A DNA stretch of 64,000 bases, from contig NZ_FOLL01000009.1 of the NCBI RefSeq assembly GCF_900112315.1, positions 1-64,000 of the forward strand, written 5' to 3'. Shown here in pieces: positions 3,963 through 45,802 of this stretch. The position numbers were made by a program, and so were the translations under genes. The notes beneath the pieces are model-generated. The model did not search any database. It was not told the DNA's origin and saw only the letters and a program-made list of their open reading frames with translations. Source of the DNA: Parapedobacter composti (lineage in GTDB: Bacteria; Bacteroidota; Bacteroidia; Sphingobacteriales; Sphingobacteriaceae). Position 1 is the stretch's first letter; every line of letters starts with the position of its first letter.

Positions 3963-5036
3963 ATGACCAGTTATCGATTGCCAGACCCGAAAAACTTCGA
4001 GCACCGTATTTCCGGCAAAAACACACACCTACTGGTTTTGGAAAATGCCCGAGGGATGGCTGTTGCCGTTTCGGACTTTGGCGCCCGTATTGTTAGTTTA
4101 TTCGTGCCGGATAAGCACGGCACACCGACCGATGTAGTACTGGGGTTCAATACCATACAGGAGTATTTGAAAGCTGAGGAACAATATCATGGTGTTACCG
4201 TGGGACGATTTGCCAACCGCATTGCCAACGGCCGATTTACGATTGATGGGGAAACCTATTATATCCAGCCTAACAATGGACCAAATGCTCTCCACGGCGG
4301 TGCAGAGGGTTTTCATAGCCGACTTTGGGACAGACGGGTAGCGTATCGCGAAAGTGTTGATTTTTATTACGTATCCGCTGATGGAGAAGAAGGGTTTCCA
4401 GGGGAACTTGCCACAACAGTCAAATACCGGCTTACAGACGATAACGAGCTCGTTATCAGCTACCGCGCCGAAACAGACAAACCAACGGTGGTTAACCTCA
4501 CCAACCACGCTTATTTCAATTTGAATGGCGAGGGTAACGGCAACGTGCTCAACCACCTATTACAAGTACACGCAGACAACTATCTACCCGTTGATAAGCA
4601 CCAGATACCGACCGGTTCGCCTATGCCGGTTGCGGGCACACCGTTCGATTTCAGCGTGGCTAAGCCGATCGGGCAAGACATTAATATGCCGGATGAGCAA
4701 CTGATTGGTGCCAATATGGGATACGATCACAATTTTGTGCTTAACCATCGAACTTTGTCAGAAAAATTGCCAGTGGCCATGGCATACTCGCCACAAACAG
4801 GTATCCGGTTGGAGGTTTTGACCACCGAACCCGGACTTCAATTTTATACGGGAAATTTCCTGACCGGAACGGACAAGGGCAAACGGGGGATTCCATACGG
4901 AAAACACGATGCTTTCTGCCTAGAAACACAGCATTTTCCGAATTCACCGAACCGGATGGATTTTCCCAGTACCGTACTGATGCCGGGCGGTGTTTTTCAG
5001 TCGGAAACGGTATACCGTTTTTCGGTAGTTAAGTAA
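3963..5036 (+). CDS. galM: Aldose 1-epimerase (galactose mutarotase)
   Basis: Interconverts alpha and beta anomers of galactose and feeds the alpha form to GalK. The beta-sandwich family signatures are visible: GRFANRIANGRF near residue 80, NNGPNALHGG near 105, TNHAYFNLNG near 180 with the conserved His, and ETQHFPNSPN near 320 with the catalytic Glu. There is no signal peptide, so it is cytoplasmic, unlike secreted relatives found in some PULs. It lies seven bases behind galK and is surely co-transcribed. Confidence 0.95.
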   Translation: MTSYRLPDPKNFEHRISGKNTHLLVLENARGMAVAVSDFGARIVSLFVPDKHGTPTDVVLGFNTIQEYLKAEEQYHGVTVGRFANRIANGRFTIDGETYYIQPNNGPNALHGGAEGFHSRLWDRRVAYRESVDFYYVSADGEEGFPGELATTVKYRLTDDNELVISYRAETDKPTVVNLTNHAYFNLNGEGNGNVLNHLLQVHADNYLPVDKHQIPTGSPMPVAGTPFDFSVAKPIGQDINMPDEQLIGANMGYDHNFVLNHRTLSEKLPVAMAYSPQTGIRLEVLTTEPGLQFYTGNFLTGTDKGKRGIPYGKHDAFCLETQHFPNSPNRMDFPSTVLMPGGVFQSETVYRFSVVK

Positions 5037-12504: not shown

Positions 12505-12730
12505 ATAAGAGGGGAAAATGGTAGAGATTCAGTTGCTTTTTAACACACTCTGTCTAAAGGTGAGTGAATCATAAATTACTCGATATTGTAAACATAAATG
12601 ATGATAGACCTCCATGTCTTAAAACTGGAAACAACGAATTGCTAACCAATTATAAACCTATTTGTTTATTTTTATTTGACAAGAAGCGGCGTAAAGTGTG
12701 GGAAACTTTACGCCGTTTCTAATTTTTCTT
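12505..12730 (+). ncRNA. Candidate small RNA or micro-mRNA
   Basis: The stretch between the perfect promoter at 12469-12499 and the intrinsic terminator at 12684-12730 would give a transcript of about 220 nt on the strand opposite to both neighbours. It includes one tiny reading frame (12518-12574, 18 residues, MVEIQLLFNTLC...) preceded by a purine-rich AGAGGGGAAA, so it could be a peptide-coding mRNA; a second 15-residue frame (MMIDLHVL...) begins at 12600. The 3' end is antisense to the last codons of the Crp-family gene at 12719. The function is unknown; the evidence is structure only. Confidence 0.5.
12684..12730 (+). terminator. Strong intrinsic terminator
   Basis: Arms CGGCGTAAAGT (12687-12697) and ACTTTACGCCG (12705-12715) pair perfectly around a 7-base loop, extended to about 14 pairs by AAG/TTT with one wobble pair. 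On the plus strand it is followed by CTAATTTTTCTT; on the minus strand the following tract is not T-rich. It therefore terminates mainly plus-strand transcription, although it also lies directly after the minus-strand Crp-family gene. Confidence 0.75.
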
Positions 12731-45697: not shown

Positions 45698-45728
45698 TTT
45701 GCTAAGTGTGATAAATACACTATCTTTG
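45698..45728 (+). promoter_or_regulatory. Perfect promoter of the candidate small RNA
   Basis: TTTG (45698-45701), exactly 19 bases, TATCTTTG (45721-45728). Full consensus match; transcription is predicted from about 45734. An intrinsic terminator ends only about 70 bases downstream. Confidence 0.75.
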
Positions 45729-45733
45729 TAGCA

Positions 45734-45802
45734 TCATAATTTAGGTTTATAATTGGTTAGTAAAGGTTTCCATTCTCCCCGTTTGGAAACCTTTCTTTTT
45801 TT
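45734..45802 (+). ncRNA. Candidate small RNA of about 69 nt
   Basis: A transcription unit made only of a perfect promoter (45698-45728) and a textbook terminator (45762-45802). The unpaired 5' part (about 28 nt, AU-rich) is followed by the terminator stem whose 11-base loop reads TTCTCCCCGTT. A C-rich UCUCCCC loop is the kind of element other small RNAs use to pair with G-rich ribosome-binding sites, although Bacteroidota rely little on such sites. No start codon with a credible frame fits inside it. It lies on the opposite strand to gldH, about 170 bases from its stop. No known family is recognised. Confidence 0.6.
45762..45802 (+). terminator. Intrinsic terminator of the candidate small RNA
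   Basis: AAAGGTTTCCA (45762-45772) pairs perfectly with TGGAAACCTTT (45784-45794) around an 11-base loop; C and then seven T follow (45796-45802). It is the clearest Rho-independent terminator in the window. Confidence 0.85.

Follow-up and report, generated by a model that had tools for sequence, protein, structure and literature searches.

A multicopy small RNA family of Sphingobacteriaceae with a constant 5' arm predicted to pair with SusC translation starts

A short transcription unit of Parapedobacter composti was found to belong to a multicopy RNA family of the Sphingobacteriaceae. The unit lies in a 64,000-nucleotide stretch of contig NZ_FOLL01000009.1, which is the window referred to below. 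In the reading that we favor, with a probability of roughly 0.6, the single-stranded 5' arm of the RNA, and not its C-rich loop, represses SusC-type importer mRNAs by pairing with their translation starts; we infer expression, pairing in the cell, and repression from sequence. In each copy of this putative trans-acting family, a short transcript would combine a single-stranded 5' arm that stays constant with a terminator hairpin that varies freely. The arm would pair with the translation initiation regions of RagA/SusC outer-membrane importer mRNAs, mainly through UUGGUUAG against CUAACCAA; in the cases found, this site is predicted to lie about 11 to 56 nt 5' of the start codon. Some top-ranking predicted duplexes would additionally place UCAUAA against the start codon. 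Such pairing would block ribosome loading, and the importers would probably be turned down by RNA, much as is done by FopS in gut Bacteroides. The arm may also bind a protein, since its conserved letters exceed what an 8-nt seed needs.

The earlier note on this DNA had described a promoter, a 69-nt unit, an 11-pair stem, a C-rich loop, and a tract of seven T residues, and all of these could be read from the sequence where it had placed them (Table 1). According to an excerpt of PMC9723704, the sigma-A box TAnnTTTG occupies positions -12 to -5, and the transcript is therefore predicted to start at A45733, one base from the 45734 proposed earlier. The loop, TTCTCCCCGTT, is closed by 11 pairs, and the fold energy is -15.4 kcal/mol versus a mean of -8.8 (SD, 2.5) for shuffled sequences, 1 of 200 of which folded as well. 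The hairpin (-14.2 kcal/mol) had been called the strongest terminator in the window, but it ranks 14th of 186 in a rough scan in which some rows overlap, the strongest being at 12682. Likewise, the promoter elements are present as described, but the TTTG-N19-TAnnTTTG spacing is not unique, with three sites on the plus strand and two on the minus strand of the window. A 101-codon open frame from a TTG at 45753 crosses the RNA unit. The core copy on the minus strand listed last in Table 1 lies 3' of a gene that encodes a cyclic-nucleotide-binding domain and adjoins the strongest scanned hairpin terminator.

Table 1. Coordinates of the features of the small RNA locus and of a further core copy in the window
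Feature	Position	Strand	Basis
-33 element TTTG, 19 bases 5' of the -7 box	45698..45701	+	Read directly from sequence
GTGT-N7-ACAC inverted repeat in promoter spacer, possible regulator site	45706..45720	+	Sequence
-7 element TATCTTTG	45721..45728	+	Read directly; exact TAnnTTTG at equal core distance in 23/49 related copies
Predicted 70-nt small RNA, from A45733 to the end of the T tract	45733..45802	+	Promoter spacing; R1 (bit score, 92.9)
Constant 5' arm UCAUAAUUUAGGUUUAUAAUUGGUUAGU, proposed seed	45734..45761	+	Predicted mostly unpaired, unlike the stem
Terminator hairpin: stem 45762-45772 with 45784-45794, C-rich loop 45773-45783	45762..45794	+	Fold, covariation
T7 tract, preceded by C	45796..45802	+	Read directly
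14th core copy without hairpin, remnant or other form	12630..12668	-	R1 (bit score, 26.9)

The unit had been taken for an orphan, which was an error: the window locus is one of 13 copies in the Parapedobacter genome. A search with 131 bases returned 13 places at an E value of ≤0.001, all of which contain AGGTTTATAATTGGTTAG, and their stems differ yet remain complementary. A covariance model, R1, was built from these copies. Among 60 relatives, R1 matched 30, comprising 30 of 37 Sphingobacteriaceae genomes (1 to 21 copies each) and none of the 23 genomes from other families of the class, with matched lengths of 67 to 72 nt. In a larger draw, 223 of 251 Sphingobacteriaceae genomes (19 of 25 genera) matched; with the best 20 candidates per genome scored, some genera had from 10 to at least 20 copies and others had one. 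The 5' arm, GGUUUAUAAUUGGUUAG, is nearly unchanged among copies. The exact 16-mer core is present in 48 of the 50 loci that hold a genome's best match (L020 to L069, with L021 from the genome studied here), a choice that favors close copies. Seven loci of genome G041 were excluded, none being above the family cutoff, and six places had been fetched under two locus identifiers, so that locus counts refer to distinct ones.

The exact core was also found in at least 116 stretches of the genome_contigs set and in 37 viral stretches from IMG/VR. R1 matched 79 of the 80 genome_contigs stretches listed and 34 of the 37 viral stretches; the sole nonmatching genome_contigs stretch listed is titled Archaeon HR02 and is probably a chance occurrence. 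Both sets were selected by the exact core, and for this reason only their hairpins count as evidence.

The earlier note had proposed a search for compensatory changes in relatives, and the stem does covary. In alignments fitted to R1, which lean towards the structure, 96.9% of stem cells were paired in 29 distinct sequences, 93.9% in 78 distinct genome_contigs sequences, and 91.1% in 27 distinct phage sequences, with two-sided changes in 10, 11, and 11 of the 11 pairs, respectively; shifting the partners by one column lowered pairing to 48 to 68%. In each of the three sets, all 500 shuffles fell below the observed covariation score and percentage of paired cells, while the bare count of two-sided pairs was unremarkable, being reached by 2, 51, and 102 of 500 shuffles. 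The loop is mostly C rich and not fixed: 75 of 134 distinct copies have CTCCCC, 45 have GCCCATC or GCTCATC, and 14 have neither.

Upstream of the core, 4 of 12 own copies have a TAnnTTTG box that ends exactly 15 nt 5' of it, as have 23 of the 49 copies from relatives, 16 of the 80 from genome_contigs, and 1 of the 32 from viral contigs. (The own count is 12, as one of the 13 copies is only 20 bases away from the end of its contig; a stretch that occurred more than once was counted a single time.) Five of the remaining eight own copies carry TGTCTTTTCAT before the core, which defines a second upstream class. Upstream GTGT and ACAC, 5 to 9 bases apart, are seen with 4 of the 12 own copies, 13 of the 49 from relatives, 23 of the 80 from genome_contigs, and none of the 32 viral ones.

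The 13 genomic places and the covariation of the stem indicate that the window unit is more than chance. The interpretation as a regulatory small RNA is well supported by the 13 paralogues, the conservation across the bacterial family, the compensatory stem changes, and the box at a fixed distance. Features by which trans-acting small RNAs are judged, namely, an own promoter and terminator and a conserved structure, could be read from the sequence. That the RNA belongs to no recognized family was borne out with Rfam 15, for which there were no matches at the gathering score in the window or in 12 own loci. A different apparent conserved small RNA, with a GCCC-GGGC hairpin, ATGTTTTTCATAGGTAGATG, and a terminator, was seen at L449 (G000:C29:6850-6906, in the own genome) and at L448 and L453 in genome G014; no Rfam match at the gathering score was found at these places.

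The genomic surroundings of the copies vary. The earlier note had regarded absence from sister species that keep the flanking genes as evidence against the element, and at the window locus this is what was found: all nine Parapedobacter genomes have gldH, but a copy of the RNA within 1.5 kb of that gene was found in the own genome alone and in none of the eight sister species. The family is nevertheless present elsewhere in all eight sisters, with 8 to 21 copies. With none of the sisters sharing it beside gldH, the window copy is probably young. It shares 91% identity over 121 bases with the own copy at the nuoD-like locus, and as this similarity extends through the promoter, it probably arose from that class by recent duplication. 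The class itself comprises four distinct Parapedobacter loci in which the RNA lies behind a Complex1_49kDa (nuoD-like) gene (own copy, L009). The most widely shared arrangement, at 22 distinct loci of several genera, has the RNA opposite an Lrp/AsnC-family gene (Pfam) at a distance of 156 to 860 nt (own copy, L019). At eight distinct loci, the RNA is beside floA (own copy, L014; Pfam), and most of these loci also contain a Maf-like gene and, in our own reading, a KdsC-like gene to which Pfam assigned no family. L013 (G000:C22:20-89 and 4032-4101) contains two copies 4 kb apart with identical upstream sequence, which points to duplication or a cassette-like arrangement. No near-perfect antisense matches to the arm were found elsewhere in the own genome; the 14 exact matches are the 13 family members and the remnant at 12642, and beyond these there was one more match with three mismatches.

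The reverse complement of the arm resembles a SusC leader that ends in a start codon, and SusC leaders were therefore tested as targets. The own set of 55 leaders was derived from 56 matches (54 leaders fetched and 2 from the window) after L160 was dropped for its unsure start, and it was compared with 107 non-SusC control genes, from which eight had been dropped as longer than 900 amino acids or SusC-like. SusC start codons were chosen by a signal-peptide heuristic, and for control genes the first ATG was taken. The top 7-mer in the own SusC leaders was TAACCAA, seen 9 times versus 0.84 expected from shuffles and in 1 of the 107 control genes. The top 6-mers were AACCAA (16 versus 3.2 expected; 4 in controls) and TAACCA (11 versus 1.8; 2 in controls). 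These enriched 6- and 7-mers are the complement of the arm. The mean duplex energy of the arm with the own SusC leaders was better than that of all 300 shuffled arms, and 1 of 200 was as good when the test was repeated with other shuffles. With the 107 control genes there was no signal, as 284 of 300 shuffled arms paired as well or better. Complementarity of the 5' arm to SusC translation starts, a property of FopS, was thus found in a sequence test.

The arm was also tested in genomes G022, G023, and G080, which represent two genera other than Parapedobacter (G022 and G080 share one genus). For the first 30 leaders from these genomes, none of 200 shuffled arms was as good, but the top 6-mers were AAAGAT and AAAAGA, with CCAATT only fourth and ATAACC only seventh. 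For 60 further leaders, 1 of 300 shuffles was as good (0 for G023, 5 for G080, and 1 for G022, each of 300), and the top 6-mer was TAACCA (13 versus 2.5 expected). Genomes without an R1 match fit the arm less well: G014 had a z score of -2.0 on 28 leaders (7 of 200 shuffles) and -1.5 on 45 of its 46 leaders (L539 has no usable start), G035 had a z score of -0.6, and G057 had one of +0.4 on 7 leaders. No fixed register between the arm and the SusC start codon was found. TTATGA at the SusC start codon occurs in 14 of 45 and 7 of 28 leaders from genomes without R1 matches, in 12 of 55 and 23 of 90 leaders from genomes with them, and in 2 of 107 control genes. A general AT-rich habit of SusC leaders may explain part of the signal.

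The UCUCCCC of the loop had been put forward as a targeting element, a suggestion that does not agree with the variation of loop type among the 134 copies or with the rarity of its complement in SusC leaders. The C-rich loop was rejected as the main seed on these grounds, GGGGAG being found in 0 of 55 and 1 of 90 SusC leaders and GGGAGA in 2 of 55 and 0 of 90.

In G014, the top leader 6-mers assemble into AACCTAAAC. A search of this genome for the complement of AACCTAAAC followed by GGTT within 30 bases gave five matches, as did the reversed control. One match, candidate L548, has a TCATA start and reads TCATATATATTGGTTTAGGTTAG; 3' of this lie a 12-pair hairpin, whose loop is GCCC, and T6. A hairpin and a T run also come after L550 but after none of the other three matches. 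L548 and L550 each score 17 bits with R1 (E value, 0.023 in 15 kb). The candidate G014 arm had a z score of -6.6 with the leaders of G014, compared with -1.3 for the own genome and -2.2 for G022, G023, and G080; this seed test is partly circular, as the candidate was found by the complement of the motif, while the TCATA start, the hairpin, and the loop are not.

Some copies are associated with phages and with tRNA genes. Ten proteins from seven of the core-bearing viral contigs were tested, and every one gave a match to a terminase, portal or head, tape-measure, or integrase family. Among 30 viral contigs scanned, there are three (L409, L423, and L424) in which the element begins 7 to 9 nt 3' of a tRNA called by ARAGORN. 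In four host loci (L042, L043, L045, and L046, from G016, G027, G009, and G032, respectively), it directly follows what is, by eye, a class II tRNA-like sequence that lies opposite the Lrp/AsnC gene and has a 7-bp acceptor, a long variable arm, and the loop letters TTGTCTC but is not called by ARAGORN. Shorter tRNA-like remnants were seen in L039, L040, L044, and L048. A tmRNA trailer, suspected from GGTTCGATTCC upstream of some copies, was rejected, as no tRNA or tmRNA was called in 60 host loci and the tmRNAs of G009, G016, G027, and G032 are located on other contigs. The element adjoins a phage integrase gene in viral L412 and L422, and some phage copies may therefore be traces of integration into the RNA gene and not cargo of the phage. 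A blastn search of the 69 nt against INPHARED phage and PLSDB plasmid records gave no match. The phage hairpins are quite unlike those of the hosts while the arm is the same, and some copies lie behind phage tRNA genes; on this basis we consider, as a doubtful extension, that phages of Sphingobacteriaceae exploit the host's importer-silencing seed for their own ends. SusC/TonB importers would then be lowered in infected cells, for example, denying a second phage its receptors. In the same doubtful extension, seed and SusC-leader motif would coevolve between genera (UUGGUUAG with CUAACCAA and, in G014, GUUUAGGUU with AACCTAAAC).

Other explanations were weighed against pairing of the arm with SusC mRNAs. 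The arm might instead be recognized by an RNA-binding protein or a nuclease, with the RNA titrating or being handled by that protein and having no mRNA target. The invariant letters of the arm, which are more than pairing needs, are consistent with this, as is the binding of RbpB to the 5' part of FopS in Bacteroides thetaiotaomicron described in an excerpt of PMC11697453. No RRM_1 (PF00076) match was found, however, in the own genome, G023, or G035 (G003, in a 633-amino-acid frame, and G014 have one each), and the motif enriched in SusC leaders complements the arm. We regard this explanation as rather unlikely. The element might also be a portable terminator with a 3'-processing signal, placed after tRNA-like, phage tRNA, and other genes and having no target in trans. 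Its position behind tRNAs in viral contigs and behind tRNA-like sequences in host loci would fit, as would the many copies that lack both the second upstream class and an exact sigma-A box at -30 to -9, which are 3 of the 12 own, 14 of the 49 related, 54 of the 80 genome_contigs, and 27 of the 32 viral copies. This is hard to reconcile with the promoter box at a single fixed distance in nearly half of the related copies (23 of 49) and with an orientation opposite to the neighboring gene at the most widely shared locus; moreover, a terminator could do without an invariant 17-nt arm and without SusC leaders that match it, and we consider it improbable that the element is nothing else.

It is very improbable that the RNA is FopS itself, a Bacteroides family, diverged beyond recognition. 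The size, layout, and predicted target class are similar, and the Rfam FopS model aligns with the window copy over positions 1 to 71 or 12 to 71 (bit scores, 13.5 and 14.4). Both scores fall far short of the gathering score (56), the matches of the FopS model in the own genome at an E value of ≤10 include none of the 13 paralogues, and no RbpB-type protein was found there, and membership in FopS was rejected. With the same model, L437 (G008:C167:79623-79690) scored 29.3 bits and L439 (G023:C1:2599056-2599120) scored 25.9 bits, also below 56; by eye these resemble small RNAs with a promoter box and a terminator, and they are possibly distant FopS-like RNAs.

If the arm does target SusC mRNAs, Bacteroides is not alone in directing multicopy RNAs against SusC start sites. 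Another such family, whose seed is different and whose hosts are environmental Bacteroidota, with no RRM_1 partner in the genome studied here, would point to a general layer of control over nutrient import; to our knowledge, the classic Hfq system is mostly absent from Bacteroidota. It would also allow joint change of seed and target from genus to genus to be tested, and the copies carried by phages prompt the question of how phages benefit.

Small RNAs with C-rich loops in other phyla, such as RsaE of Staphylococcus, expose a C-rich stretch in a hairpin. The RNA described here likewise has a C-rich stretch exposed in a hairpin, but its loop varies between copies, and the complement of the loop is rare in SusC leaders. 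In the open-license literature, no description of such an RNA was found for Sphingobacteriaceae, nor one containing the 16-mer. Rfp18 of Flavobacterium psychrophilum is also a conserved small RNA of Bacteroidota, its conservation being within the genus; in contrast to the RNA described here, it is predicted to target metalloproteases and an adhesin by pairing through a stem-loop, according to an excerpt of PMC9723704 in which multiple copies are not mentioned. The closest known RNAs are FopS (Rfam RF04319) and GibS (PMC7366714, in excerpt) of B. thetaiotaomicron. As described in an excerpt of PMC11697453, FopS has 14 copies of about 65 to 70 nt with a constant 5' seed arm and canonical promoters, pairs with SusC translation starts, and has its sequence reported in a Caudovirales phage. 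Our family differs from FopS in its arm sequence, which is below the Rfam cutoff, in the bacterial family in which it occurs, in the RRM_1 protein not found in the own genome, in a terminator loop that is mostly C rich, and in the location of some copies behind tRNA or tRNA-like genes. It resembles FopS and GibS, as far as these are covered by the excerpts cited, in being multicopy (13 own paralogues, each with a 5' arm and a terminator) and of about the same length, in the constant 5' arm that serves as the seed, here by prediction, for SusC translation starts, in its canonical promoters, and in its occurrence in phages.
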